DNA of 64,000 nt, from positions 1 through 64,000 of the forward strand of contig NZ_JAAGMD010000321.1 of assembly GCF_010548465.1 (NCBI RefSeq), written 5' to 3'. The notes under the pieces are model-generated. The model ran no database searches. It saw only the letters and a program-made list of their open reading frames with translations, and was not told where the DNA came from. This DNA is from Streptomyces sp. SID14436 (GTDB lineage Bacteria > Actinomycetota > Actinomycetes > Streptomycetales > Streptomycetaceae). Positions 1 to 19,272 of the stretch are shown here, one piece after another. Within the stretch, counting starts at the first letter, position 1. Every line of letters begins with the position of its first letter. Made by a program: the position numbers and the translations under genes.

Positions 1-324
1 CCCGGGTGGATCTGCCCGAGTGGGTCGATTCCGCACCGCGACCTGCTCAACGACACACCGCATGAAAACGGGAGCCTGCTCCCCCCCAGCCACGTGAGAG
101 ACGACCGTGCGAACAGACAGGCTCGGTGGCAGCGGCGCCGGGCTGTCTGATCGGCCTCCTGCCATAAGCGCCGGCGCTGATGGCGCAGGGGCCCCGGCAC
201 ACCGTCGGGAGACCCCCCATACGGTCGTGCTCGCGGTGAAGCATTGTCTGAGCGGCGCGCACCAGGTCTGCAGGTTCTTTAGTCTGGCTACAGGAGCGGA
301 CACGGGCAGCAAGGGAATTGGACG
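1..324. other. Upstream region, no gene seen
   Basis: No convincing coding sequence in either strand; the short open frames here are shadows. The only functional signal I can point to is the ribosome-binding sequence AAGGGA at 311-316, placed 8 bases before the ATG at 325. Confidence 0.6.
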
Positions 325-3300
325 ATGATGGCGACCCATGAGGCCGGCGGCGCAGACCATACCCAGGCGCTCTTGTGGTCTGCTCCCGAAGGTCCACTGC
401 CGGCGCCGCCCATCGACACCAGGGCGCAGGTGCTGCCCGTCGGCGACCTGGAGTGGCCCGACGCAGAGCGTCTGTTCCTCAGGCTGCTGCACACCGTCCG
501 GCCCGTCCAGTACGCCAAGCTCTTCGGTGTGCCGGGTCAAGCCCAGGGCGGGATCGACGCTTACGCTCGGCTTCCGCTCGACCTGGCGCACGGCGAATCC
601 AGCGGCCGGGACTACATCACCCTGCAGTCCCGGCGAATCAGGACGCTGACCGCAGCCAAGATTGAGAAGGCCGTCGACGACCTCCTGGCGGGGGAGTGGG
701 CGCACAAGACGGCGAGGTTTCACTTCGCCACCTCATTCGACTTGCAGGACACCAAGCTGGACACGGCAATCCGTGAGCAGACGGAACGGCTGGCCGAGCT
801 CAAGATCACCTTCGTTCCATGGGGCGTCCAGGAGGTCTCCAGCCTTCTAAAAGACCAGCCGCGCATTGTTGATGACTTCTTCGGCCGACCCTGGGTGGAG
901 CGCTTCTGCGGCACGGACGCAGCCCAAGGCCTGGCACATAATCTGCCCCAGCAGGACAGTCGAGAACTCCGAGCCGAGCTGCGCGAGCTCTACCACGCTG
1001 TCTTCTCCGCCCAGGGCGGAGTCCACACGGTCGACGACGCCGAGTCAGATGACACGTTCGTCGTCCTGGATGTCGATCCCAACCGACAGCGGCCTGACCG
1101 CTTCGACGCTGAACAGCCCGAGCCGGCCGCCGAAGACCAACGTTGGGCGCAGGACCCCGGGGACGGACACACCTACATCGCCTCACGGCTGGGCGGCTCG
1201 CGGCAGTCGTTCAGATCCGCCCACCAGCTCCTCGGGCGTAGCAACCAGGTAGGCCCAGCCACAGGTGCCGTCATGGCGGCCGATGAGTGGCTGGCCGGCG
1301 GCAAGTACCGGCTGCTCGTCGGCCGTCCGGGAGCGGGAAAGTCCAGCCTGTTGCGGTTCATCGCGGCCGACCTGCTCTCCGCTCAGCCGCAATCGGTCAC
1401 GCTGCAGCGGGAACACGGCACCGACCTGCCCGTCTGGCTGCCGTTCGGATTCCTGTGCCGCCACCTCGAAACATCGACAGAAAACTCCCTCGTCTCGGCC
1501 GCCGAAGCCTGGCTGAGGTCGCAGAGCGCCGCCCACCTGTGGCCGCTGGTAGAACGCGCGCTGCGGGACGATCGCCTGCTCCTGCTCATCGACGGCATCG
1601 ACGAGTGGAGCGACGTCAGCGCAGCCGAACGTGCCCTGGGAACCCTCGAGGCGTTCCTTGGCCGCACGGCGGCTTCAGCCATCCTCTCCACACGCCCGTA
1701 CGCAGTCGACCGCCTCAACTGGAGGCGACCCTGGGAGCAAGCGGAGATCACTCCGCTGACCGACCAGCAGCGCCGGACGATCTCAGCTGCCGTCCTCGGG
1801 CCAGCCGAACGACCGCTGGACATAGCAGCCAGTCCTGCGATGTGGAGCGGCGGCATCGAGGCGTTCCTGGCCCAACTGGAGACCATTCCGGAGCTCGCCG
1901 AACTATCTCGGTCACCCCTCTTTCTCACCCTGCTCGCCACAACCTGGCAAGGCGAGCCCCTCCCACGTCAACGGTTCAAGATCTACGCCCGACTCGTCGA
2001 ACTGCTCGTGGAGAAGCACCCTCAGATGCGCCAGCGTGCTTCACACGCTCACGGGGCTGTCCTGACGGCTGCAGAGGCCACGATGCTGTTCGCTGCTGTG
2101 GCTTACCGACTGCGCGTCAAAGACCCTACCGGCACTGTTACCAAGGCGGAGATGCGCACGCTCATCGTCGAGTCGATGACCGACGACCAGGTCCTCGGCT
2201 ATCCGCAACCAGAAGCCCGCCGCGTCGCCGATGCCGTCCTCGCCCTGGCGGAAGACGAATTCGGACTGATCGTGTCGCACGGCGCTGGCTCCTACGGCTT
2301 CCTGCACCGCGTAGTGCTTGACCATCTGGCCGGCGAGTACCTAGCCACCCGCCCCGCTGAAGAACAGAAAACAGTCGTTCAACGAACGGTGCAGGATCCG
2401 GCCTGGCGTGATGTGCTCCTGGCACTGCTGACCGCGCAGATCAGCTCTCACACCACCGAGCACCTGCTTGCCGCGGCCCTCGACACCGACACGCAACGGT
2501 GGGCAGACATCGATGGATACGAGCTGCTCGCCGAGGCACTCGCCGCCGGTGCCAAGCTCACTCCGAGAGCGCAGAGCCTCTACATCAACCAGCTCGTCGA
2601 ACGAGTAGAAACCCATCCCTCGCTGCCTCATCGCGCCAACCTCATCACCGCGCTCACCAGCATGCTCGCAAGCCACGCCGCACGCACGCACCTGCTGCCG
2701 GTCATGAAGCGCTGGCTCACAGCACCCCGCCCTAACCCTTCGCCGACCATGTGGGCGCTGCACGATCTGGATATCGACGACAACAGGGCCGCCGAGTACC
2801 TGCTGTGGGGCATGCGACACCCAGACGAGCAGGTGAAAGTCAACGCGGCAGCAGCCATCGCCCACCGATTCGGTGGACAGCCGCACATACTGAAACAGCT
2901 GATCACTTTCACCGAAACGGGTCCGTCCTCAGCCATTCAGGCCGCTGCCCTCCTCGCCCTCAGCCGCGGCTGGCCCGACACACCCGAGACCGCACGGCTG
3001 GTCGACTGGGCGCGGCGCCAGCCATCCAGGCCGCTCCGGCTGGTCGCTCTGCAGGCCCTGCAGCGCACCACCCCGTCAGGCGATGCCACCCTGTACCGGC
3101 AAGAAGAGCGAGACTGGCTGCTGTCCCTGCTACACAGGGAAGACTTCCACTCGGGCCCATGGCCCACAGCCGACCTCATCAACATAGCCGCCACCGCGGA
3201 TGCACAGGCAGCCGACTTCGCGCTGGAGACCCTGACGACGAACGGACGCAACGGCGGCGACCGCAGCCTTGCGTGGATCCTGGCCTGTCACGCATTCGCC

Positions 3301-6279: not shown

Positions 6280-7344
6280 TCAGATGGTGCGGCTGCGGCC
6301 GATGGCCAGGGATTCCAGCAGCTCCTCGGTGATGCGCTCCTGCTTGTTCCAGATCGCTTTCTGGGCGCCCTGGCTGACGAGCTGGGACAGGGCCCGCAGG
6401 TAGCCCTTGGTGCGGCGGTGCAGGTATTCGTGCAGGTTGGTCAGGTCGTCCGGCTGGTGGTGGTGCAGGCACAGGTTCTTGTCGAACTTGCGGACGATCT
6501 TCGTGAACAGTTTGTGGCCGTCCGTGTCGTAGCCGATCCGGCTGGTGCGCAGGGCGGCGTAGTCGCCCCAGATCTCCTCGTTGTCGGCCAGAGCGGTTTC
6601 CCGGTCCCGGGTCAGGGGATCGACGATGGAACGGGCGGCCCGTCCGGCGAAGAGGAAGGTGGCACCGGTGCTTTCACTGATCTCTTCCAGGTAGGCGAAT
6701 GACTCCTCGGCGTCCGCGCCGGCCCGCAGCTGCTCGATGCCGTCGATGAGGACCAGCAAGGTGGAGCTGTTGCGCATCACATGGCAGATGGAGCGGGTGG
6801 GGTCGCTGCCGCCGTCGTGCTTGAGGCCGAGGAAGGAGGCGAAGGCTGCCGGCCAGTTCCGCCGTCCGCCGCGGGCCAGGGGAGGCACCCGCAGCGCGAT
6901 CACCGGGATGCGGTTCTCGTCCGGCTCATACAGGCGGGCGATCTTGTTCTCGTAGTGGCGGCCGATGTACTGCAGGATCTCGGTCTTGCCGGTGCCGCGG
7001 GGGCCTTCGATGATGACACCGGTCTTGCCGTGGATGCGTTCCCGGTTGGCCAGCAGATGCTCGTGGACGACGACCAGGGCCCGGCCGATGGCGGGGGTGA
7101 CCACGGTCGGCATCAGGGCGTGATAGCGCAGCCGCAGGTCGTTGTCGGCGACTTCCGTGCCGGGCGGCGGGCTGTCGGCCAGGTCGGGCCGGGTGCGGTC
7201 CAGGGCGGCGAAGGTGCGCCAGTTGCTCAGGGTGTTCAGCCATACCGGCCGGGGCGCGGTGAACACCGGCGTGGGGGCGGGGGAGTCGATGAGTAGACGG
7301 ATGTCATCGTCTTCGGTCTCCTCGATGACCGGTGGCTGCGTCAT
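6280..7344 (-). CDS. TnsC/TniB-like AAA+ transposition ATPase
   Basis: A 354-residue AAA+ ATPase of the TniB/TnsC type, the regulator that links target selection to the transposase in Tn7- and Tn5053-like elements. Walker A is GPRGTGKTEI (Lys120) and Walker B is LLVLIDGIEQL (Asp201). The downstream FLFAGRAARS segment resembles a sensor strand. The ATG at 7344 overlaps the stop of the tnsB C-terminal frame by ATGA, so the two are translationally coupled; this also identifies the true tnsB end. Last gene of the minus-strand operon tnsA-tnsB-tnsC. Family assignment rests on P-loop plus context; a plain AAA ATPase is the alternative, but the neighbours make that unlikely. Confidence 0.82.
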   Translation of the reverse strand: MTQPPVIEETEDDDIRLLIDSPAPTPVFTAPRPVWLNTLSNWRTFAALDRTRPDLADSPPPGTEVADNDLRLRYHALMPTVVTPAIGRALVVVHEHLLANRERIHGKTGVIIEGPRGTGKTEILQYIGRHYENKIARLYEPDENRIPVIALRVPPLARGGRRNWPAAFASFLGLKHDGGSDPTRSICHVMRNSSTLLVLIDGIEQLRAGADAEESFAYLEEISESTGATFLFAGRAARSIVDPLTRDRETALADNEEIWGDYAALRTSRIGYDTDGHKLFTKIVRKFDKNLCLHHHQPDDLTNLHEYLHRRTKGYLRALSQLVSQGAQKAIWNKQERITEELLESLAIGRSRTI

Positions 7345-9714
7345 GTCCTGTCCTCCTGCGGGGGGTCGGTTTCGGCGGGCAGGTCCAGCAGGTGACGCGC
7401 CACGCTGTCGAGGCTGTCGTCCAGGTCACCCAGATCCGCCAGGAGCGAGGACACTTCGGTGTCCGCGCCGCCCGGAGCGTCCGGTCCGTGGGCGGGCCTG
7501 GGCGCGATCTCTTCTTCCGCGGGGGAATACAGGCTCGGCTCGTCCAGCTCCAGCACCGTCAAGGGTCCCAGCGCGTCCAGGTCCAGCGCCTCCGCGTCGG
7601 CGAACGGGTCGAAAACGCCGTCACCGGACGGCTCCCACCCGCCATCCAGCCCCGGCACGGGCGCGTAGCCGTCGGGCACGCTCACCACACCCGGGTCGTC
7701 CGGACCCTGTCCCGCCCGCTCCAGCAGGTCGGCCAGGACCTGCGCGATGGCTTCGTCCTGCGTGTGGCGGCCGCCGCGCGCCACGTACTCCGCGGTGGCC
7801 GAGTCCCACAGGTGCTGTGTCCACGGGGCGCCGATCAGGTGCTGGTGCTTGAAGACCGGCAGTGATCCACTCGCCGGAGCGGTGGTCGCGCAGCCACACC
7901 TGCTCGGGCGTGTAAGGGTTGTAGCGCAGCTCCCACCCGTCACGCTTCTTGCCCTTGAGCCCCGACGGCGTGTTGCGGACCTCCTCGAGTTCCCCTTTGA
8001 AGTTGTCGTAGGTGCGGTTCTTGAACCGGATGCCGTCATCGCGCACCCCGACCCAGGCGGTGGGCAGCAGCTGGAGGTAGTCCGCAAAGCCCAGCGGGAT
8101 CGGTAGGTAGCCAGCCGCCTGCACGCCCGCTGCGTACATCTGGTTCGGAGTCAACGGCGGCAGGTTCGGCTCGTAAGGGCTGCGCAGCTCCTCATGCGGC
8201 CGCGCCTGCCAGCCGACCGCGATCCACTCCTGCAGCAGATTGTCCAGCTCCTGCAGCGTCCACAGCCGGTCCGGATCGATCTCTTTCCCGCGGCGGCTGA
8301 AGTCCCGCCCGGTGTAGGAGTTGACGTGCTGGCTGAACAGCGACTTGATCGACGCAAAGGTCCGCTCGACGATCGCCTTGTCGGTCGGGGTGCGCTTGCG
8401 CGCCGGACGCACAGAGATGCCGAGGTAGGAGCAGGCGTCGAAGAAGGTTTGCCCGGTGAAGACCGTGCCGTGGTCGATCACGATCGTCTCCGGCATGATG
8501 ACCGGCCGGGCCGCTGCGTGCTCCATCCGCGCGTCGACCTCTAGCAGTTCCTCATACGGCAGATCCGAACGGGCCGCGGACGCGGCCCCGTCGAAGCCAG
8601 GCCGCATCGGGGCCGGCACCATGCACAGCGCCAGCAGCAGTGAGGCGTCCACTGCCTTGGTGGCCCGCCCCTTGCTCGTGCCGGTGCTCAGCAGCGCCCT
8701 CGTCTGTTGCCGGGTCTTGCGCCGGCCCGCAGTCTTGGGCCGTAGCACGGCTGCGATGATGCTGCGCGTGAAAACGTCGATGGCTGCCGTGAGTTCCACC
8801 TGGGTGGGCCGTCCGTCATCGCCCAGCACTTTGACATCCAGCGCGGTGGAGTCGATCTGCACGAGCTCGCCCGGCGCGGTGGCGGTGGTCACAGCGAACG
8901 GCGGGGCCGGACGGTTGAGACGGTCCTTGCGGCGCCGGGTGGGATCCCGCAGCTGAAGCGCGTCGATCCCCAGCCGCTTCAACAGCGCGTACAGCGTGGG
9001 GTCGGCCGGCACCTTCACGCCGGGGCCCAGCCTGGCCCGTGCCGTGCGCCGCAGGTTCTTGAACAGCGTGCGGGCGTCGGTGGCGGCTTCTTCTTTCGCC
9101 TGGCGTTCCTGCAGCGCCAGCAGCAGGTCCACCACCCGAGCATCGGTGCGCCCGTTCACCGTTGTCTGGCGGGTACGCCGCTTATCGATGAGCCCCCAGA
9201 TGTCCTCGCGAAGAAAGGCCAGCCGCTTGCGCTGGACCGTCTTCCACGACACCTTCCAACCCAGCACGGCCTGCAGCTCGGCAGCCTTGCGTTCATAGCG
9301 CTCGACCAGCGTGAACAGCTCCGGGTCATAACCTTCCCGCGGTCTGCTGCCCTCGGGGACCTCCGGCAGCAGACCGGTGTCGACCTCGATGACGTGCCGC
9401 CGCCACATCCGTGCTTCATGGGCGCACTCGGCACTGACCCCCTCCAGCATGGACCAGTTCGGCAGCGGCTCCGCCGACACCGGCCGGCCCGACCGGTCGA
9501 GCACGGCGAAGTCCCCGGCTGCGGCCAGGAACTGAATCGGCACCGACACCGCAGGCGCCGCCCCACCTGAGGCAGGCTCCAGATGCGCCGTCGTACCCGA
9601 CAGGGCCGAGACGCCATAGTGGCTGCCCATCCAGCGCACCTGGTCGCCGGGCGCCAGAATGCCGCGCGGCGCCAGGCCAGCGGCCGGGGGCTGGCTCTCC
9701 GGCACCACGCTCAC
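7341..9714 (-). pseudogene. TnsB/TniA-like DDE transposase, frameshifted near the C-terminus
   Basis: Retroviral-integrase-type transposase of the Mu/TnsB/TniA group. The catalytic triad is visible: Asp288 (ELVQIDSTALDV), Asp414 (TIVIDHGTVF) and Glu450 (AIVERTFASIKS), with 35 residues between the second Asp and Glu. A beta-barrel-like Mu C-terminal region follows. The opening frame runs 9714-7621, but homology leaves it at about residue 618: after EWIT the sensible continuation (PVFKHQHLIGAPWT) lies in the +1 frame, so one extra base sits near position 7860. The second frame runs about 173 more residues to 7341 and overlaps the tnsC start by ATGA, as expected for the authentic end. The start overlaps the tnsA stop (9711-9714). 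Could be a real inactivating mutation, a sequencing error or, less likely, a recoding site. Confidence 0.8.
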
Positions 9715-10469
9715 GCTGTCTTCCCCTCAAGGGGCTGCCCCATCGCCGACGGCATCCGGCCCGACAATCTGATCACACTGCTCGGGCCCATGGCCTTGTT
9801 CCACTCCATGCCCAGCTCCTGCCGCCACAGCAGGTGATACAGGCGCGGCAGCGTCGACAGTCGCGGCAGCCCCGTCGCCCGTACCCCCTCCTCCAGCTCG
9901 CAGGGAGTCCGGAACGCGGCCTTCAGAGCCTGCTCGACCTCCCGGTCGCCCCACCGCGGGTGCCGGTAATGCGACACCCACCGCAGGTTCGCCAGCGCCA
10001 TAGGTCCCGGAATCCGCGGCATCCCCAGCTCCCAGCCCGCCTCCTGACAAGCCTGGCGCAACACCTGCTGCTGACGCTGCCACCGCGGACTCGGCCCGCT
10101 CGCCGGAGGGCAGGCAACGACCAGCGTCGCCCCCTGATCCGTGCGCACGAAGAAGTCCGGCACGACGCTGCGCTCCCGGCCCCGCGCACGCCACTTGATC
10201 TTCGCGGACCAAGCGGTGAACTCCGTCACCGACGGGCTGAAATCCAGCAGCATGGCCACCGCCAGCACGTTCATGGACCGGCAGCCCACGTGCTTGCCGG
10301 TCGTGGCGGCCCACCACCAGGTAGCAATGCTGCGCTGAGAGGGATGCCGGGCCGGACGCCACACCTCGCCCCGGCGGGTGAGCGGAACAGAGCCTGCCTG
10401 GGCGACGGGGACCGTGATGCTCCTGCTGCCGTCCTCAAGGCGGTGGACCGCCATCAATGCCTCAGCCAT
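9711..10469 (-). CDS. TnsA-like transposase endonuclease subunit
   Basis: A 252-residue protein resembling the TnsA-like heteromeric transposase endonucleases, which cut the 5' ends of Tn7-type elements while TnsB cuts the 3' ends. The core shows the family order: a short N-terminal segment, SMNVLAVAMLLDFSPSV, then TEFTAW with a candidate catalytic Glu, VVPDFFVRT with the Asp, and a strand LVVACP where family members normally carry a catalytic Lys or a D-V-R/K. That lysine is not obvious here, so cleavage competence is doubtful. I prefer the ATG at 10469, which has GGGAG four bases upstream, over a GTG at 10514. It overlaps tnsB by four bases, indicating coupled translation as the first gene of the operon. 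Confidence 0.72.
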   Translation of the reverse strand: MAEALMAVHRLEDGSRSITVPVAQAGSVPLTRRGEVWRPARHPSQRSIATWWWAATTGKHVGCRSMNVLAVAMLLDFSPSVTEFTAWSAKIKWRARGRERSVVPDFFVRTDQGATLVVACPPASGPSPRWQRQQQVLRQACQEAGWELGMPRIPGPMALANLRWVSHYRHPRWGDREVEQALKAAFRTPCELEEGVRATGLPRLSTLPRLYHLLWRQELGMEWNKAMGPSSVIRLSGRMPSAMGQPLEGKTA

Positions 10470-10776
10470 CGTGCTCCCGCATCTGTCCGGCCTCTGCAAA
10501 TCCTCATATTGCACGGCGAGTTGACTTTAGTGCGGGGGGAGATGGCCAAGGGTCAAATACCGTCATCCTCAAAGCTGCCGACCGTCCCGCCGACGGCCGG
10601 CGTGACGCCCCGCAGGGCGAGACCATGACCACCCTCACCTCTCCCTGCAGACCGCTGACCTGGACGGTCCCACGCCAGCCGCTTATCCGTCCTGTCCCGG
10701 GCCGCACCTGCCGACACAAGATCCACGATGACCGGATGCCGACGCCGCACGCCGTCGGCCTGCCAGATTCGGCTGC

Positions 10777-12831
10777 GTGCGAGAAGACCACCCCGACACC
10801 TCCGATCTCCACGCCCGCGTGGACGGGCTCCTCGCCGACCTGGCAGCACGGCGCAGCCCCCTGCCACCGGCCTGCGAACGGACCCGGCTGCGCGAGGCCG
10901 CGGGCCTGTCCCCTGCACAGGTAGCGGACACCCTCGTCTGCCAGGCTCAGGACATCGAGGCATGGGAGGCCGGGAATCGGGAACCGATCGGTGTTCGTCG
11001 CACGGCTTACGCGCGGCTTCTCAAGGGCCTTAAGCACATGGAGAAACCGAAACGGGACGACAAGCTCGTCCCCGGCGAGAGCACCGCATCACCCGCACGG
11101 CCCGCACGGCCCACAGCACCCACGTTGCCCGTCGGTCCGCAGCAGCCAGCGCTCTTCCCCGCATCCGCCGAAGCACCACCACGCCCGCCAGTGGCTAGCG
11201 AACCACCCGTCACGCCCACCGGGCCGCTGGCCGTTATCGACCACGACATCTTCCTGGTCGCCCACTTCACCAACGGCACCCGCCTGCCCCTGGACGCGGA
11301 CGACCTTGTCGGCCTGCTGGAGTGGACGCTGCGCAGCGGTCTGCACCAGGAACGGCTGTCCCCCCAAGGCAAGGACAGTGACCCGCTTATCGTCCTGACC
11401 CCCGCAGCGAGTGCCGCACTGCACCTGCCCGCCCACCTGGAGGACCGAACCGCCCTGTGCCTTCCTGCCGGCCATCCCGTCCTGACGCAGCTGGGGCAGG
11501 CAGGCTTTCTCCTCACCCGCCGCGGCTTCGCCCCGTGGGCCGGGATCTACCGGCCGGTCGTGAACAACAGGCGCGCCTCGGTACACGTCGCCGTCATGGC
11601 CTGGGGAGCCCTGTCTCAGGACGGGTGGAACCTCCCACCACTGCCGCCGTCAGACCTGGCACGGCTGCTGGGCACCTACGCGGCCCGGCTCTTGACCCCC
11701 AGCGGCTCCACCGCGGTCTGCGGCGTCAGACTGATGACAGCCCTGCGGCCACCCACCAAAGCGACCTACGACCCGGCCACCCTCAAATGGGTGTCCGGGC
11801 CCAACCCCGGCGCCCTGCACAAGCCGTTCGAGCCAGCGCCCCCAGAAGCCCCCGACGCCCACCCCCTGGCTAAAGGCCGCCCGCCGGAGCAGGCCATGGA
11901 GGAGGAAGCCTGGGACTGGAGCCGCCCGCCCGACCAGCAGGAGACAGCCGACTTCCCGCACGTCGTCGGACTCGACACCAACATGGCCTTTATCGTCGCC
12001 GCCTCCAGGCTGTCCGTCGGCCGCAATGCCCCGCCCCGCCATGTCACGACACCCGCCTTCGACGAGAAAACTCCCGGCGCCTGGTACTGCGACCTCAGCC
12101 ACGCCCCGCACGACCCGCGGCTGCCCTCGCCTTTCACCGCCACCGGTCAACCCCCGACCAAACCCGCCTGGTACACGACCGTCACCCTCGCCTACGCCAA
12201 GGAACTCAACATCGAGGTCCGGCCTATCGAGGCCTACGTCCGCGACGATCACGGCTCATATCTGGACCCCTGGTACACGCGACTGAGAGACGCCTACCTC
12301 GCCACCATGGCCGACCTCGGAGTACACAAGGACATCCCCCAGGCCGACTACCTGGCCGCCATGAAAAGACTCTCGACGGCAGACCCCGCCCTGCTCGCCC
12401 TGCTCGCAGCGATCAAAGCCACAGGAAAAGGCGGCCTCGGCAAACTCCGCGAAGGCCCCCGTGCCCCCGCCGCCCCCTACACACGCTGGCCCGCACTCAA
12501 CCAGCCCACCTGGCGCCCCGACATCCGTGCCGCCGTCATCTCACGCACCCGCGTCAGCCTGCACCGCAAAATGCGCAGGATGCTCACCGAGACCGGCCGC
12601 GGCCCGCTTGCCGTCCTCTCGGACTGCGTCATCTACCCCGCCCACCAGCCGACCGCCCTCGACGTCGTCCCCACCGGCCCCGACCAGACCGGCATCAAGG
12701 GACTGCTGTGCCTGGGCGTCAACCCCGGCTTCGTCAAAGAAGAAGGCGTTCAGACCATGGCCTGGTACCAGCACCAGCACACCCAAGGCCTCAACCCCGC
12801 CCGCTACATCAAAGCCCACCCCGACGCCTGA
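10777..12831 (+). CDS. tap: Telomere-associated protein Tap
   Basis: A 684-residue protein with the full layout of Streptomyces Tap, which binds the telomere 3' overhang and recruits terminal protein Tpg for end-patching of linear replicons. An N-terminal helix-turn-helix (RLREAAGLSPAQVADTL ... EAWEAGNREP) is followed by a proline-rich linker and the conserved body starting at PLAVIDHDIFLVAHF. It ends in the typical PARYIKAHPDA. The body carries blocks that look like a family B polymerase palm: VVGLDTNMAF (Asp400), IKATGKGGLGKL (Lys547) and AVLSDCVIYP (Asp616). That resemblance is my inference. Start is GTG at 10777, with only a weak ribosome-binding site. Unusually, tpg does not follow directly: a minus-strand tniQ-like gene intervenes. 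Confidence 0.9.
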   Translation: MREDHPDTSDLHARVDGLLADLAARRSPLPPACERTRLREAAGLSPAQVADTLVCQAQDIEAWEAGNREPIGVRRTAYARLLKGLKHMEKPKRDDKLVPGESTASPARPARPTAPTLPVGPQQPALFPASAEAPPRPPVASEPPVTPTGPLAVIDHDIFLVAHFTNGTRLPLDADDLVGLLEWTLRSGLHQERLSPQGKDSDPLIVLTPAASAALHLPAHLEDRTALCLPAGHPVLTQLGQAGFLLTRRGFAPWAGIYRPVVNNRRASVHVAVMAWGALSQDGWNLPPLPPSDLARLLGTYAARLLTPSGSTAVCGVRLMTALRPPTKATYDPATLKWVSGPNPGALHKPFEPAPPEAPDAHPLAKGRPPEQAMEEEAWDWSRPPDQQETADFPHVVGLDTNMAFIVAASRLSVGRNAPPRHVTTPAFDEKTPGAWYCDLSHAPHDPRLPSPFTATGQPPTKPAWYTTVTLAYAKELNIEVRPIEAYVRDDHGSYLDPWYTRLRDAYLATMADLGVHKDIPQADYLAAMKRLSTADPALLALLAAIKATGKGGLGKLREGPRAPAAPYTRWPALNQPTWRPDIRAAVISRTRVSLHRKMRRMLTETGRGPLAVLSDCVIYPAHQPTALDVVPTGPDQTGIKGLLCLGVNPGFVKEEGVQTMAWYQHQHTQGLNPARYIKAHPDA

Positions 12832-12863
12832 CCCCTCCCACGCCGATGCCACCTGCCCCACAC

Positions 12864-13931
12864 CTACTGCGTCGGCCGCCACGGCATGCTCGTCATCCGC
12901 GCTCCCAGACGCCACGGAAGACACGACGCCTCCTCCAGCGGACCATGCACCGGAACCACACGATGCGGCTCCAGCAACGCCAGCGGCACACTCCGGGGAT
13001 GCGCCCGCGCATCCTGCCGCGCCAGACGCTCGACGACCGGCACCGTATTGCGGTGCGACATCAGCCACGCCTCCAACCCCCGATGCCCCCCGGCGGCCAT
13101 CTCCTCACCCATCCCCAGCCGTTCACCCACCCACTGCACCCACCGCCCCGTCGACCACCCCGCAGGACCGCCCGCGAAATTGCGCCCCACCGCCCGCTGC
13201 CGCTCCCGCACGGCCATCGCCTCCGCCACGATGACCACCTCCGGATACACCACCAGGGGAACAGCCCACAGCGCCGAACGATCCACCCCCAAAACCTCCT
13301 GCCGCGCCCGCCACACCCCACGCCAGGCCATCTGACGGCACTGCCACCAATACACCGCCACCTGCTGCGCATCCGCCAGCAGAGCCCGCGCGTACAGACC
13401 TGTACGACGCTCCAGACCCACCCGCCGCACGTGCGCCTCCACCACCTCTGGCAACCGCTCGAGGCCGACCTGGAACTGCCCCCGGCCCACAGCCGTCCAC
13501 CGTCCGTGCCGCACACACACCGCCCACTGCCCACCGCCCACCCGCCACACCGGACGCTCACCGAGCCCAGCCGCGCACAACGCACAGGCCTGCACCGGCA
13601 TCCAGTTCTCCGGCCAGGCTTCCACCTTCACCTGGTGGCGGGCCCGCGGACCGATGCCGCTGTCGCCGAGCGACACCAGCGCCCGTTCCAGATGCGGCAA
13701 GGGCCGTCCACTGACCTCCGCCAGACGCTGACGCGCCGCAGGCCCCAGACGCACCTCCTCAGCACCCGGATCAACCGCCCGGATGGTCCTCGGCGCACCG
13801 ATGTACTGAGCCAGCTCCTCGAAGGCCATCCCATTGCGCACCGCGAGCCGCCACAGATACGACGCGATCGTCTCGCCGCGCACCATCACCACACGTCCCG
13901 GCAACCGCGGGAGCGGCTCTTCGATCCTCAT
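12864..13931 (-). CDS. TniQ-like target-selection protein between tap and tpg
   Basis: A 355-residue TniQ/TnsD-type protein. The N-terminus has the family signature: LPRLPGRVVMVRGETIASYL, then WRLAVRNGMAFEELAQYIG. A zinc-binding segment follows (ACALC ... WAVCVRHGRW, the C-x2-C ... C-x2-H pattern) and then a tryptophan-rich helical region. TniQ proteins choose the target site for Tn7/Tn5053-type transposition together with TnsC/TniB, so this is the probable partner of the tnsABC operon at 6.3-10.5 kb. It is convergent with tap (33 bases between stops) and divergent from tpg (69 bases between starts), an arrangement that breaks the usual tap-tpg operon. Start ATG 13931 is chosen because it opens the family signature; the frame continues upstream but overlaps tpg. 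Confidence 0.78.
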   Translation of the reverse strand: MRIEEPLPRLPGRVVMVRGETIASYLWRLAVRNGMAFEELAQYIGAPRTIRAVDPGAEEVRLGPAARQRLAEVSGRPLPHLERALVSLGDSGIGPRARHQVKVEAWPENWMPVQACALCAAGLGERPVWRVGGGQWAVCVRHGRWTAVGRGQFQVGLERLPEVVEAHVRRVGLERRTGLYARALLADAQQVAVYWWQCRQMAWRGVWRARQEVLGVDRSALWAVPLVVYPEVVIVAEAMAVRERQRAVGRNFAGGPAGWSTGRWVQWVGERLGMGEEMAAGGHRGLEAWLMSHRNTVPVVERLARQDARAHPRSVPLALLEPHRVVPVHGPLEEASCLPWRLGARMTSMPWRPTQ

Positions 13932-14000
13932 GCAGTGATCGTCACAACCCCCGCCGCCGGCGCCACACAAACAAGCCACCCACCACGAAAGCTGCCCGCC

Positions 14001-14570
14001 GTGCCTTTGAGGCTGAGCGCCGACACCGTCCAGGAAGCACTCGACCGGGCCGACTCCCGGCACTGGACCCGCAACCCGCCCCGTTCCATGCGGGTCCGGC
14101 TCACCTACCTCCTCAAGCACTACGAGCCTGCCGCCCTTGCCCGTCGGCTCCAGACGACACCCTCCCACCTGGACGCTCTGCTCGACGCTCAGCAGGTAGC
14201 GGAAGACGACCTGCATAACGCAGTGGAACGCGAAGTCGTCCGGATATGGCAGCCTCGCGTCCGCCGCCGCGCCCACGCCACCCTCCTCGCCAACGGCGGC
14301 CGGATGACACTCAGCTTCCGCGCATGGCTGGGATTCACCGCAACAGCCGGATCAAGTGACGACCCACGCCTGCGCTTTTTGAGCCTGCACCTGGACGCCC
14401 CCTTTCCGGAACGCCTGTTCACCGCCCGGCGCATCGGAGCACCGGAATCAGAACTGCAAGCCATCCTCAACGACGCACTCAGCACGTGCTACTTCCACCG
14501 CGGCCGGCCCGCACACCTCAGGGAGAGCGTGAGCCTCGACCGCATCGACTTCCTGGAGTTCTACTACTGA
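14001..14570 (+). CDS. tpg: Terminal protein Tpg
   Basis: A 189-residue protein matching Streptomyces Tpg, the protein covalently attached to the 5' ends of linear chromosomes and plasmids that primes end synthesis; the family is usually about 185 residues. Visible family features are the N-terminal segment MRVRLTYLLKHYEP, a helix-turn-helix (AALARRLQTTPSHLDALL), the WQPRVRRRA basic block, FRAWLGFTATAGSSDDPRLR and the closing SLDRIDFLEFYY. The GTG at 14001 opens the homologous region; the same frame is open far upstream but only as a shadow of tniQ. It has its own promoter region in the 69-base gap, because tap lies beyond the oppositely oriented tniQ gene. Transcription independent of tap is therefore likely. 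Confidence 0.88.
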   Translation: MPLRLSADTVQEALDRADSRHWTRNPPRSMRVRLTYLLKHYEPAALARRLQTTPSHLDALLDAQQVAEDDLHNAVEREVVRIWQPRVRRRAHATLLANGGRMTLSFRAWLGFTATAGSSDDPRLRFLSLHLDAPFPERLFTARRIGAPESELQAILNDALSTCYFHRGRPAHLRESVSLDRIDFLEFYY

Positions 14571-14612
14571 GATCGATCCGCTCCTCCCGCTCCCTGCAAT
14601 GAGCCCGTGAGC

Positions 14613-14652
14613 CGAAGCACGGTAGTTGTCACATAGGCAGGCTTGCTGTCAC
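14613..14652 (-). repeat. Two abutting 20-bp transposase-binding-type repeats
   Basis: Two head-to-tail copies, at 14613-14632 and 14633-14652, of the pattern CGARGCA-N7-TGTCAC (reverse of GTGACA-N7-TGCYTCG). The first forms most of the left inverted end of the 1,043-bp element. The second is a weaker match in its first half (ATAGGCA). Confidence 0.7.
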
Positions 14653-14719
14653 CGGCGAAGCTGCGGGTCGCTGGGCCCGCCCATCCGGGAAGTCAGCGCC
14701 TCGGGCACAATCAGGAGCC

Positions 14720-15460
14720 GTGCCCACCCCTCCTGATCCCGCAGTCCTGTACCCCGATGTCGCGGCCTGCGGCAGCCTCGCCGCGGCGCTCCGGGCCGAG
14801 GCGGAAGGCTGCCTCGCCGGTGTTCCCGTCACGTCCTCGGACTCTGATCCGCTGCTTTACGCGACCGTCACAAGCATGCTGCCGCACCGCGAGCCGCTGC
14901 AGATCAGCGTATGGTCGCACGAGCGGCGGTGGTCGATCCGCGGCACGGAACCGTTCCAGACCCTGTCCCTCATTGATGGCAGGACGGACGACCTGGCGGA
15001 GGTCGCCAGGGCCGCCCGGGCCTGGCACGACGGTGAGCCGCTGAACGGCATTCGCCAGGCGGCACCCTTCGTGCACCTGACTGGCCGGTTCGAGGTGCCC
15101 GATCTCGATTCCGCGCGACTGGTGGAATCTGAGTGGCAGAGCATGCGCGTGGAGGCGAGCGGGCTGGACTACGTCTGGCAGAAGACGTACCAAGCCCTGA
15201 TTGAGGCGGCGCACGCCGAGCCGGCGCTTCGTGCCCTCTACCCGTTCACGAGCCACTGGGCGTTGCGCTTCTCGACCAGCACCCGCCCGCACCTGACCGT
15301 CGTCGGACCGTGCCTGACCGCGGGCAGCGACGGCATGTACGGGGTGGGGACAGGGTTCATCACGCCGGACCTTGGCCTGTTCGCCACAGCGCACGAGGCC
15401 GTGGCGGTGGCCGTGCACCATATGCCGTCCGGCCTCGGCCCGGTCACGCTTGGCGGATGA
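14720..15460 (+). CDS. DUF6193 family protein, passenger of the compact element
   Basis: A 246-residue protein I recognise as DUF6193, an actinobacterial family of unknown biochemical function often labelled a natural-product-biosynthesis protein. Family-like blocks are VWSHERRWSIRGT, the segment ending YPFTSHWALRFSTSTRP, HLTVVGPCLTAGSDGMYGV and the closing LGPVTLGG. No signal peptide or membrane segment is visible. The start is the GTG at 14720; AGGAG lies only two bases before it, closer than normal, so a slightly different start or leaderless translation is possible. The gene fills almost the entire 1,043-bp inverted-repeat element, with 111 bases before and 190 after it, so it is the element's only cargo. 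Confidence 0.7.
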   Translation: MPTPPDPAVLYPDVAACGSLAAALRAEAEGCLAGVPVTSSDSDPLLYATVTSMLPHREPLQISVWSHERRWSIRGTEPFQTLSLIDGRTDDLAEVARAARAWHDGEPLNGIRQAAPFVHLTGRFEVPDLDSARLVESEWQSMRVEASGLDYVWQKTYQALIEAAHAEPALRALYPFTSHWALRFSTSTRPHLTVVGPCLTAGSDGMYGVGTGFITPDLGLFATAHEAVAVAVHHMPSGLGPVTLGG

Positions 15461-15518
15461 CCTTGCCCGACAGAGGGGCCGTGTGGGTGCAACCACCGCC
15501 CGCATCGCCCCGGCACTG

Positions 15519-15645
15519 GTGACAGAAAGGCTGCCGAACAAGCACTTGTGACAGGTCGAATGCCTCGTTGGTGACAACCAGGCTGCCTCGACCGTCCCCA
15601 TTCACCACTTCAGCCGGTCCTGCTGGTGACAACTACCGTGCTTCG
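15519..15645 (+). repeat. Four spaced 20-bp transposase-binding-type repeats
   Basis: Copies of GTGACA-N7-TGCYTCG at 15519-15538, 15548-15567, 15571-15590 and 15626-15645. The third and second match the consensus exactly; the first ends TGCCGAA; the fourth is part of the right inverted end of the element. Spacings between starts are 29, 23 and 55 bases. Together with the two left copies this gives the unequal 2 + 4 site layout seen at ends bound by TnsB-like proteins. Confidence 0.72.
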
Positions 15646-15849
15646 GCTCAGAGCCCGGGGCGGGGCAGGTGGTTGACCTCGGTCGCCCTCACGCGCTGCT
15701 TGCCAGCACGGGACTCGGGGCGGAAGGCGGACGCGGTGCTGTGGGACGTCGACCGTCGCGTTTCTGCCGCCTTTGACGCTCTTTCAGCTGCCATACTAGA
15801 TTGAGTCCCCGATCAGATAACAGAGTCCGCTTGTAGAAGGGAGGCTGGC

Positions 15850-16446
15850 ATGCTGCTGACGACCGGTCAGGCGGCAGACGAACTCGGCTGTGCGATCACC
15901 ACCTTCCGCCGCCTCGTGCATGCCGGCCTGCTGCCAGGCCTGTCCCGCCGTGGCGTACGCGTCATGATCCCCCTGGACGCGGTCCAAGCCCTCGCCACCC
16001 GCCGTCGCGCCCCGCTGGAACAACTGGACGTCACGGAGATCGCTGTGTTGCGGGTCGACGCAGCCCGCCCGGCCCCCGAGCCCGACCGGCGATGGATCGG
16101 CTTCGCCGCCACCCTCACCCCCGACGACCTGCTCAAGGCCCTGCGCGGCTGGTGGCGCTGCGACCCGGTAAGCGTCGCGGCTGGGGGAGTACTCCCCGTG
16201 ACCCTGTCGGGCTACGTCGTCGCCGTCCTGACCGGCCTGCAGGCATGGGAAAAAGACTCAACCGGCCGCCACACCTTCTCCCAGGCTCGCCTGGCCGGCT
16301 ATATCACCGACCTGGCCGCACCCCGCAGCACCCTCACCTCCGGCAGGGATGGTGATCAACACCTTGCCGAGTTGCTGCTGGGTTCCCGCCTGCCCTCCGA
16401 CTCCGGCGGGGCGATCGCCTACGTCACTACCCGTACCGCCAACTGA
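15850..16446 (+). CDS. Helix-turn-helix protein, first gene of a Tap-like operon
   Basis: A 198-residue protein with an N-terminal MerR/excisionase-type winged helix: LLTTGQAADELGCAITTF, then RRLVHAGLLPGLSRRGVRVM, then LDAVQALATRR. The remainder (WRCDPVSVAAGGVLPVTLSG ... VLTGLQAWE) is conserved in Streptomyces plasmid proteins, but I know no function for it. Start is fixed by GGGAGG at 15839-15844 before the ATG. The next gene begins 28 bases after the stop and the third overlaps the second, so these three form an operon. A regulatory or DNA-recruitment role for the operon is inferred only from the HTH. It lies immediately outside the 1,043-bp element. Confidence 0.65.
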   Translation: MLLTTGQAADELGCAITTFRRLVHAGLLPGLSRRGVRVMIPLDAVQALATRRRAPLEQLDVTEIAVLRVDAARPAPEPDRRWIGFAATLTPDDLLKALRGWWRCDPVSVAAGGVLPVTLSGYVVAVLTGLQAWEKDSTGRHTFSQARLAGYITDLAAPRSTLTSGRDGDQHLAELLLGSRLPSDSGGAIAYVTTRTAN

Positions 16447-16474
16447 ACGCCAGGCCCGGACAAGGAAGCCCCTC

Positions 16475-18550
16475 ATGGACGCACAGAGCTACAACGCCGC
16501 GCTCGCCGACCTGCGCGCCGTGCGGGACCAGATCAAGAAGGCCCGGGCGGCGCTGGCGAAGCTCGAAAATGACCGGGCTAGGCGGATCGCCCAGGTGGCC
16601 TCCTACGAGAAGGCCAAAGCAGAGCGGATCGCCCCGGCCGCCGGGCTGAGCGTGTCCGACGTCGTCGCCCTCGTTCCGTCCCTGGCGCCCGACAGCCTCA
16701 CCGCGGAAAATGCCGAGGTGCCGGCTACCGCCGCGCCTACGCTGTCCGAGGACGCCGAGCTGGAACTGGCCACGCAGCCCGCCGCAGTGGCGCCCGCCCT
16801 GCGTACCGCGCGGCCGCAGGCCGCCCCCTCCGAAGCCCCCGCGGTGACGGCAGCCGCGGATGCGCCGCGTGCTCTTCCCTCCATCCCCGAGGGGGAGACG
16901 GGCGATGCCTGGTTCGCCCATACGACCGGCCTGGCCTCCACTCGGCCGAACTTCACCCAGCAAGCCCGCTCCACCGTCTTCCTGGACACCGACACCGGCG
17001 TGCTGGTCCATCGCAACCAGACTCACCACCTCGACCTCGGCACCAGGTCGGCCGCGGACATCCTCACCGCCGTCTTCCACACCATCCCCGAGGGCGTGGA
17101 ACGGATCTACATCACCGCCGGCGACCCCTGGCACCGCGACGCCGACCGCTACCCCTATCTTCGCGATGCGGTCGCCGCCTGGCTGAACGCCCCCATCCCG
17201 GGCTGGCGTACCGACACCGGCCGCGGCCGCGACCGGATGGCCGGGCACTTCGTCCACGCCCGCAACCCCGTCGGCCGCTACCAACGCGACAGTGGCGACA
17301 GCCACGTGGAGATCCGCTCGGTGGGGGAGTGGTTCGACACCAACGGCGACGACCCCGCCACCATCCGAGACGCCTTCGTCCTGCTGTGGCAGGCCCTGCG
17401 CCGCCACTGGAACGACGCCGTCATCATGGGCTCCCCCTCCCAGACCGGCCGCGACCTGTGGACCCGCACCATCCCCACCCGCGGCCAGCACGCCGACGGC
17501 TACCCCGTCCTGTCCGAAGAACTGCGCGGCCTCCTCCACGCCACCGCCGGACAGGGCCGCAACGAACTCATCACCCCACCCCGCGTCCCCGACGAACTGC
17601 CCCAACTCGTCGAATACGACCGCACCTTCGCCTACGCCAAACACACCTGGAAATCCCCGGTCGGCACCCCACGCCGCATCACCGCCCACACCTTCGCCAC
17701 CTGGAGCGAGAAGGAACAGATCCGCGCCCTGTACGGGTGCGGCCACTGGCAGGTCCGCGTGACGGTCCCCGACGCCTGGAACCACGTCGGCCTCCTGCCC
17801 GCCCCCGCCCCCGGCGACCGCGCCTGGCACTACCCGGCCAGCCCCGGCACCACTTTCACCACCTGGGCCAGCGGCCCCGAACTCCATGCAGCCCTGACCA
17901 ACCCCATCCAGCCGTGGAAGATCGAAATCCTCGACGGCATCCTGTGGGACGACGGCAAACCGCTCGACGACTGGGCCAAGAGACTCAAGGAGACCTGGAG
18001 CAACCTCTCCGCCCAAGCCCACTTCCAGGGCGACCCCCAGCAGGCCCGCGCCGCCCACCTCGCCTCCCGCGCCGTGCGCTCCATCCTGCTGTACGGCATC
18101 GGCGCCTTCGCCCAGCGCCCCCGCATGGTCACCGGCACCACCCCCCGCACCATGGAGCGCGACGTACCCGCGGACGCCGAGATCATCGGCTTCGACGACA
18201 ACGTGATCACCTGGCAGAAACCCACGGGCTTTGCCCGAGACCCCAACGCACATCCTGAATGGGCTGCCGCCATCTGGTCCGGCGCCCGCGCCGCCCTCCT
18301 CACCCAGCGCCACCGTGATGACGACACCTACGCCGGAGCCCTCCACACACCCCCCGGCACCGTCGTCGCCTTCCGCACAGACGCCCTCTATCTCACCCAG
18401 CCCCACAACTGGCCCTACCACCACCAGCCCGGCGACTACCTCCTCAAAGGCAACCTCACCGGCCCCTTGGCAGCCCCGACCACCGAAGAGGAACTTCTCA
18501 CCCTGCGGGATGCCGGACGTGCCGCCCTCACCAGTGACCGGGAGACCTGA
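16475..18550 (+). CDS. Tap-like large protein with polymerase-palm-like motifs
   Basis: A 691-residue protein. Residues 1-50 form a coiled coil and an alanine/proline linker follows. The rest shows the same order of blocks as Tap: LVEYDRTFAYAKHTW (Asp382), PIQPWKIEILDGILWDD, LASRAVRSILLYGIGAF (Tyr540), WAAAIWSGARAALLTQ and VVAFRTDALYLTQ (Asp636). These align in order with motifs A, B and C of family B DNA polymerases, as do the equivalent Tap blocks. This is a by-eye comparison, not a search result. The ATG at 16475 has AAGGA upstream. Its stop overlaps the ATG of the next gene (TGATG), as for an obligate pair. SCP1 Tac (with Tpc) is the known non-canonical analogue I would compare first; a plasmid replication protein is the alternative. 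Confidence 0.55.
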   Translation: MDAQSYNAALADLRAVRDQIKKARAALAKLENDRARRIAQVASYEKAKAERIAPAAGLSVSDVVALVPSLAPDSLTAENAEVPATAAPTLSEDAELELATQPAAVAPALRTARPQAAPSEAPAVTAAADAPRALPSIPEGETGDAWFAHTTGLASTRPNFTQQARSTVFLDTDTGVLVHRNQTHHLDLGTRSAADILTAVFHTIPEGVERIYITAGDPWHRDADRYPYLRDAVAAWLNAPIPGWRTDTGRGRDRMAGHFVHARNPVGRYQRDSGDSHVEIRSVGEWFDTNGDDPATIRDAFVLLWQALRRHWNDAVIMGSPSQTGRDLWTRTIPTRGQHADGYPVLSEELRGLLHATAGQGRNELITPPRVPDELPQLVEYDRTFAYAKHTWKSPVGTPRRITAHTFATWSEKEQIRALYGCGHWQVRVTVPDAWNHVGLLPAPAPGDRAWHYPASPGTTFTTWASGPELHAALTNPIQPWKIEILDGILWDDGKPLDDWAKRLKETWSNLSAQAHFQGDPQQARAAHLASRAVRSILLYGIGAFAQRPRMVTGTTPRTMERDVPADAEIIGFDDNVITWQKPTGFARDPNAHPEWAAAIWSGARAALLTQRHRDDDTYAGALHTPPGTVVAFRTDALYLTQPHNWPYHHQPGDYLLKGNLTGPLAAPTTEEELLTLRDAGRAALTSDRET

Positions 18551-19272
18551 TGGCGCCCCCGCCCCGCCGCAGCACTCCAGGCCGTCGGCACCCGTTGAAC
18601 GAGGCCGCCCGACTGGCCGACCGACTCCAGCAACACGGCTACACCAAGCGAGACATCGCCCGCATCATCAACCGTGACCCCTCGCTGGTCTCGCAGTTCT
18701 ACACCAAGAACAAAGGCGCCGCCTTCGTCACAGCCCTGCGCGAAGTGCTCACCGCCGCCGAAACCGGCGGCATCACCGACCTGCCCGAACTGGCCGCCAT
18801 CGCCGCCCGCCACACCCGCCGCCGCACCACCGCATCCGGCGCCCGCGCCCGCGTGCGCACCAAAGCCGTATTGATCACCCCCACCGGCTCCGGCACCGGC
18901 CGCGTCGGCGCCCAGGCCATCGCCTCCGGCTCCGCACGCCTGCGCCCGCTCATCGCCGAAGCCGCCCGCCGCGGACTGCGCCTGGCCTTCACCGTCCGCC
19001 TCGCCAAGACGAGCTACCGCCACCCCTCCGGAAGCAGGACAGATTCTCCCGGCATCCGCCGCGACGTGATCCAGCGCGGCGACCACAGCGAAGAACGCTC
19101 CTACGGCTCCGCCCAGACCGGAGGCTTCGACGCCGCCGACTTCGCCCGCCGTGTCGACGCCGCCGGCGGGGACGTCACCCAAGCCGTACACCAGTGGCTT
19201 GTAGAGACCGGACGCATCCGTCCCGACGCTCAAATCCTCCACCTCGAAGTACGAACCTGGCGTCCGCGCTGA
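18550..19272 (+). CDS. Small HTH protein coupled to the Tap-like gene, candidate non-canonical terminal protein
   Basis: A 240-residue basic protein. An N-terminal helix-turn-helix (ADRLQQHGYTKRDIARIINR, then DPSLVSQFYTKN) is followed by an arginine-rich hinge and a mixed alpha/beta region ending FARRVDAAGGDVTQAVHQWL and DAQILHLEVRTW. The plan (HTH, basic block, closing beta strand) loosely parallels Tpg, and the gene overlaps the stop of the Tap-like gene just as tpg pairs with tap. I see no direct sequence similarity to Tpg. Whether it is a terminal protein like SCP1 Tpc, a partition factor or a replication initiator cannot be decided from sequence. No membrane segment or signal peptide. 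Confidence 0.5.
   Translation: MAPPPRRSTPGRRHPLNEAARLADRLQQHGYTKRDIARIINRDPSLVSQFYTKNKGAAFVTALREVLTAAETGGITDLPELAAIAARHTRRRTTASGARARVRTKAVLITPTGSGTGRVGAQAIASGSARLRPLIAEAARRGLRLAFTVRLAKTSYRHPSGSRTDSPGIRRDVIQRGDHSEERSYGSAQTGGFDAADFARRVDAAGGDVTQAVHQWLVETGRIRPDAQILHLEVRTWRPR

Follow-up and report, generated by a model that had tools for sequence, protein, structure and literature searches.

The window analysed here is a stretch of 64,000 nucleotides from Streptomyces sp. SID14436 (contig NZ_JAAGMD010000321.1, positions 1 to 64,000). Two of its genes, tap and a homologue of tac, encode proteins of 684 and 691 amino acids (aa) that very probably belong to a single divergent group of family B DNA polymerases, each representing one branch of it; in fold the group is nearest to the protein-primed phi29 type. 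The two genes and the parts of Tap that could be delimited are as follows.

10777..12831, forward strand: tap, 684-aa telomere-associated protein, very probably a divergent family B DNA polymerase of the protein-primed type that carries a helix-turn-helix (HTH) at its N-terminus (NF047542; AlphaFold2 model; phi29 polymerase top match in the PDB).
10870..11040, forward strand: N-terminal HTH of Tap, residues ~32-88, outside the polymerase core (PF13560 HTH_31, E 4.6e-5; helices in the model).
11218..11736, forward strand: exonuclease-like domain of Tap, residues ~148-320, boundary approximate (VIA alignment to the phi29 N-terminal domain).
16475..18550, forward strand: tac homologue, 691 aa, very probably a second divergent family B polymerase, with a long N-terminal helix in place of the HTH (AlphaFold2 model; phi29 polymerase top match in the PDB; family of the pSCO2 and pFRL3 proteins).

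Tap and Tac serve in copying the extreme ends of linear Streptomyces DNA. Purified Tap with Tpg, and purified Tac with Tpc, are known to carry out protein-primed synthesis, placing nucleotides on the terminal protein with no other polymerase needed (2015, PMC4513846). Synthesis by Tap stops at 13 nucleotides, and the first step of the Tap and Tac reactions is stimulated by Mn2+, as in phi29 and adenovirus (PMC4513846). The authors of that work found Tap and Tac to be without a polymerase motif and without mutual homology, and raised the possibility that activity arises only in the Tap-Tpg complex (PMC4513846). A sequence-only reading of the window had suggested that Tap may be more than a recruiter of Tpg; the activity is known, and the suggestion is not new, since nucleotidylation of the terminal proteins by Tap and Tac was published in 2015. 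The new elements are the family B fold, the putative catalytic residues and the kinship by descent of Tap with Tac, which together give a testable answer to the question of how enzymes said to have no polymerase motif can make DNA. No earlier report of the fold, the catalytic residues or the Tap-Tac kinship was found in the literature covered, which excluded Yang et al. 2017 (NAR gkx189). Surveys of polymerase families from 2020 and 2026 make no mention of Tap, and in the 2026 bacterial census Actinobacteria are typically without family B enzymes (PMC12926913). If the assignment is true, family B polymerases are hidden in many Streptomyces, and telomere patching in this genus has a common origin with replication of the phi29 type.

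Tap belongs with certainty to NCBIfam NF047542 (telomere_Tap), with a score of 880 bits against a cut-off of 600. The 691-aa protein, which starts at an internal ATG of a 733-aa open reading frame, has no match in Pfam or NCBIfam and no meaningful match in PHROG. Its relatives are found on plasmids of Streptomyces and Kitasatospora, and further on plasmids of Curtobacterium, Micrococcus, Paenarthrobacter, Cutibacterium, Clavibacter, Microbacterium, Glutamicibacter, Rothia and Kineococcus. Among them are proteins of pFRL3 (57% identity) and pSCO2 (32% identity), two plasmids with SCP1-type telomeres, tac and tpc being stated for pSCO2 (PMC8743542). In all 14 plasmid loci read, the family member is followed by a gene for a protein of 199-305 aa, usually overlapping or within ~30 bases; in locus L053 ~560 bases lie between the two. 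The name Tac homologue is given because pSCO2 and pFRL3 carry members of the family and because a Tpc-like gene adjoins it. By sequence comparison with the pSCO2 and pFRL3 proteins, and not with SCP1 Tac itself, the 691-aa protein is thus a Tac homologue and the adjoining 240-aa protein a Tpc homologue. An assignment as a second Tap was considered and dropped in favour of Tac, given these plasmid relatives; Tac-like is a better name than the earlier label "Tap-like".

The palm motif strings named in the sequence-only reading stand at the quoted residues in both proteins and are conserved beyond chance. In Tap these are LDTNMAF with D400 (motif A), IKATGKGGLGKL at 546-557 with K547 (motif B region), the helix string WRPDIRAAVISRTRVSLHRK at residues 579-598, and LSDCVIY at 614-620 with D616 (motif C). 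In the 691-aa protein they are YDRTFAY with D382 (motif A), RSILLYGIGAF at 535-545 (motif B region), WAAAIWSGARAALL at residues 596-609, and FRTDALYL with D636 (motif C). Conservation was counted in family alignments of 49 Tap and 52 Tac-like sequences, the Tap set including members near 25% identity, some of them inside proteins of 1200-1800 aa. The individual positions are listed below.

11974..11976, forward strand: Tap D400, motif A (D-x-N-x-x-F), counterpart of phi29 D249 (48/49, the remaining sequence gapped; strand 395-401).
12415..12417, forward strand: Tap K547, motif B lysine (K-x7-G), counterpart of phi29 K383 (49/49; register as phi29 AKLMLNSLYGKF).
12550..12552, forward strand: Tap R592 in the "WRPDIR..." helix, counterpart of the R in the phi29 Tx2(G/A)R motif (R in 46/49; preceding A in 48/49).
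12622..12624, forward strand: Tap D616, motif C, counterpart of phi29 D458 (49/49; hairpin turn).
17618..17620, forward strand: 691-aa protein D382, motif A (52/52).
18077..18079, forward strand: 691-aa protein R535, motif B basic residue (R-x7-G; 51/52 R, 1 K).
18380..18382, forward strand: 691-aa protein D636, motif C (52/52; hairpin turn).

G555 of Tap and G543 of the 691-aa protein are likewise invariant. Aspartates conserved in at least 90% of sequences are few (6 of 41 in Tap; 3 of 50 in the 691-aa protein, namely D171, D382 and D636). Five residues after the motif A aspartate, where phi29 has Y254 (+5 from D249), the Tap family has F or Y at position 405 and the 691-aa protein has Y387. 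Motif A and motif B are 147-153 aa apart, versus 134 in phi29, which leaves room for a TPR1 insertion. Variability of the motif aspartates among homologues, which would have spoken against a polymerase, is thus not seen.

AlphaFold2 models of the two proteins were made from separate alignments (43 sequences for Tap, 38 for the 691-aa protein) and with no templates. The Tap model has a mean predicted local distance difference test score (pLDDT) of 80.2 and a predicted template modelling score (pTM) of 0.71; for the 691-aa protein the values are pLDDT 70.4 and pTM 0.64. In the Tap model D400 ends the strand 395-401 and K547 lies in a long helix (537-558). D616 and D636 are placed in beta hairpin turns (Tap 612-614/617-622; 691-aa protein 631-633/638-640), as in family B polymerases.

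Each model resembles the polymerases of family B, with phi29 first; a fold lacking a palm, the other outcome that would have spoken against the proposal, is not seen either. In Foldseek searches of the PDB the top nine matches of Tap are phi29 DNA polymerase (E 2.1e-6 to 8.8e-5, probability 1.00), and all other listed matches are family B; for the 691-aa protein the top six are phi29 (E 3.1e-8 to 6.1e-7, probability 1.00), the next having E 0.087. With VIA-align, Tap is aligned to phi29 at Z 16.4 over 386 residues with a root-mean-square deviation (rmsd) of 6.3 A, residues 148..684 corresponding to 5..528, and the next family B match has Z ~10.4; the 691-aa protein is aligned at Z 12.2-13.8, at best over 401 residues (164..691 to 5..540), and the next match has Z 8.2. 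In the viral model library BFVD the top named matches of Tap are from Bifidobacterium phage BadAztec1, GA-1, a tectivirus and His1 virus, all of them protein-primed polymerases or relatives of these.

Tap and Tac are homologous by profile comparison, with E 3.9e-8 over 421 columns (reversed controls, E 0.14-0.21) and, for profiles from other alignments, E 7.3e-9. The alignment pairs D400 with D382, K547 with R535, G555 with G543 and D616 with D636. The Tac profile also picks up L039, a Tap-like open reading frame from a distantly related actinomycete (E 2.6e-6). Pfam DNA_pol_B_2 finds four Tac-family proteins (E 4.4e-4, 0.0015, 0.015 and 0.22), and in a low-stringency alignment motif B is in register among phi29 (AKLMLNSLYGKFASNP), Tap (AIKATGKGGLGKLREGP) and the 691-aa protein (AVRSILLYGIGAFAQRP). 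The proposal of derived protein-primed polymerases is therefore supported by fold, residue conservation and Tap-Tac homology.

Several observations weigh against this assignment. The first aspartate of the motif C D-T-D (phi29 D456) is replaced, position 614 being mostly L in Tap and position 634 mostly R in the Tac family; N-S-x-Y of motif B is lost in both families, K547/R535 and G555/G543 being retained. Foldseek TM-scores to phi29 are low (0.27-0.37) and the whole-model rmsd is large, so the claim is limited to a shared fold and does not extend to close superposition; in the models, domain packing either differs from that of phi29 or is poorly predicted. The Tap-Tac similarity is weak (E 0.013) with narrow alignments alone. 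The DNA_pol_B_2 matches are all below the cut-off, the best reaching 19.7 bits where 25.8 are needed, and comparison of the Tap and Tac profiles with seven phage polymerases is non-significant (E 0.15 and 0.068). The proteins are filed as a divergent variant and not as canonical family B enzymes because the first motif C aspartate is missing.

Three other explanations were weighed. The one that survives best, although it is unlikely, is that the families are polymerases and the copies in the window are decayed or specialised cargo and inactive. In its favour, the Tap of the window shares only ~50% identity with archetypal Taps, the contig also carries a second tap-tpg pair, of the archetypal kind, and the nearby tnsB looks frameshifted; against it, both genes have kept every catalytic position and an uninterrupted reading frame, and the gene order is preserved in three other species. 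The copies themselves may well be active. Decidedly improbable is a family B fold with a dead or accessory site, in which Tap and Tac would position the terminal protein and the activity in vitro would have another source, for example a contaminating enzyme or a site shared with Tpg. Loss of the first motif C aspartate and of the motif B NS-Y fits such a site, as does the published thought of activity emerging only in the complex; however, the catalytic carboxylates of phi29 are Asp249 and Asp458, D456 not being among them (PMC4974454), and both have invariant counterparts here. That Tap and Tac are unrelated novel polymerases outside the known families, whose likeness to family B is due to chance or convergence, is very improbable. 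The 2015 authors, who saw neither motif nor mutual similarity, took the two for unrelated novel enzymes, and hidden Markov model (HMM) searches of solved-structure sequences gave no polymerase and only HTH or chance matches. Against this reading, family B comes first by a wide margin for both folds, the Tap-Tac profile match is at E about 1e-8, and the invariant motif residues follow family B order and register.

In the favoured assignment to a divergent family B group, D400/D616 of Tap and D382/D636 of the Tac-like protein, as counterparts of phi29 D249/D458, would be the two metal-binding palm carboxylates and would carry out catalysis, and K547/R535 of motif B would hold the incoming nucleotide. 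Each polymerase would partner the small terminal protein encoded alongside (Tpg and Tpc, respectively), and the accessory N-terminal part (the HTH in Tap) may aid binding of the folded 3' overhang. The palm would then link the first deoxynucleoside monophosphate to the terminal protein and copy a short stretch of the overhang, to be extended by another polymerase. A C-terminal thumb is apparently absent or reduced in the models, the alignment stopping near phi29 residue 528 for Tap and 540 for the Tac-like protein; a missing thumb may be reflected in the short product and fits the published limit of 13 nucleotides. In the exonuclease region, D155 and D157 of Tap are partially conserved only, and in the Tac family D171 is kept and position 173 is variable; ExoII and ExoIII were not recognised with confidence, and proofreading is probably weak or none.

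Compared with known systems, phi29 DNA polymerase (PDB 1XHX, 2PYJ, 2EX3) is like Tap and the Tac-like protein in the overall fold predicted for the exonuclease-like region and the palm/fingers, in motif A (D-x-N-x-x-Y/F), motif B (K-x7-G), the A-R before motif C and the motif C aspartate, and in having a terminal protein partner, as established earlier for Tap/Tpg of Streptomyces and for Tac/Tpc of SCP1 (PMC4513846). It differs in having the first motif C aspartate and the motif B NS-Y, apparently in having a fuller thumb, in lacking the added HTH of Tap and long helix of the Tac-like protein, and in processive replication, as opposed to the limited synthesis published for Tap. The window Tap belongs to the same family as Tap of the archetypal Streptomyces Tap-Tpg system, with tniQ lying between tap and tpg in the window; the Tac-like protein is homologous to that of the SCP1-type Tac-Tpc systems (pSCO2, pFRL3) and is likewise adjoined by a Tpc-like gene. 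The P protein of hepatitis B virus, the analogy drawn by the 2015 authors, likewise makes short DNA by protein-primed synthesis; it is a reverse transcriptase, and no such fold is among the best matches of the Tap and Tac models.

The terminal protein genes are as follows.

14001..14570, forward strand: tpg, encoding the terminal protein partner, ~189 aa with an assumed GTG start (resembles the Tpg that follows the contig's archetypal tap).
18550..19272, forward strand: tpc homologue, coding for a 240-aa HTH protein that is presumably the terminal protein used by the Tac homologue (next gene after the 691-aa family member in 14/14 plasmid loci read).

Matches to tpg adjoin tap in many loci (tblastn). 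Profile similarity between Tpg and Tpc is weak (E 8e-4) and mostly in the HTH, for which reason no shared ancestry is claimed for the terminal proteins. A gene for a DUF6193 protein lies at 14720-15460, between tpg and tac.

Genome contigs were scanned with one composite Tap and Tac query covering both families; scans of viral contigs gave no relatives, whether the query was Tap, the 691-aa protein or an alignment of Tac from Micrococcales. In other actinomycetes, proteins of 1239-1844 aa (L034, L035, L037) have a palm domain of the Tap type as their C-terminal part, and their long N-terminal parts have no Pfam match; no polymerase Pfam match was found in the distant Tap-domain proteins of 1200-1800 aa.

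The gene order in the window is tniB/tnsC, tnsB, tnsA (reverse), tap (forward), tniQ (reverse), tpg (forward), and tac and tpc (forward). Order and orientations of tnsB, tnsA, tap, tniQ, tpg, tac and tpc (within 6283-19272) are common to the window and three other Streptomyces genomes (L152, L153, L154); identity is 72-88% for tac and tpc and ~34-52% for the other genes. A gene for a TniB/TnsC-type ATPase lies beyond tnsB in both loci checked, namely the window (6283-7425, reverse strand) and L152. The end of tnsB (about 7340-8150, reverse strand) seems to run on in another frame, a possible frameshift or assembly error. These Tn7-like surroundings are a lead, separate from the polymerase claim. 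In one reading, which is unlikely, the two telomere polymerases function within a Tn7-like element, a transposition system having acquired a protein-primed polymerase and terminal protein, to be used at replicon ends or to make them. The second, archetypal tap, with tpg directly downstream, lies at C158:81220-84030, on the same 99-kb contig and outside the window, and a third tap is present on contig C476.

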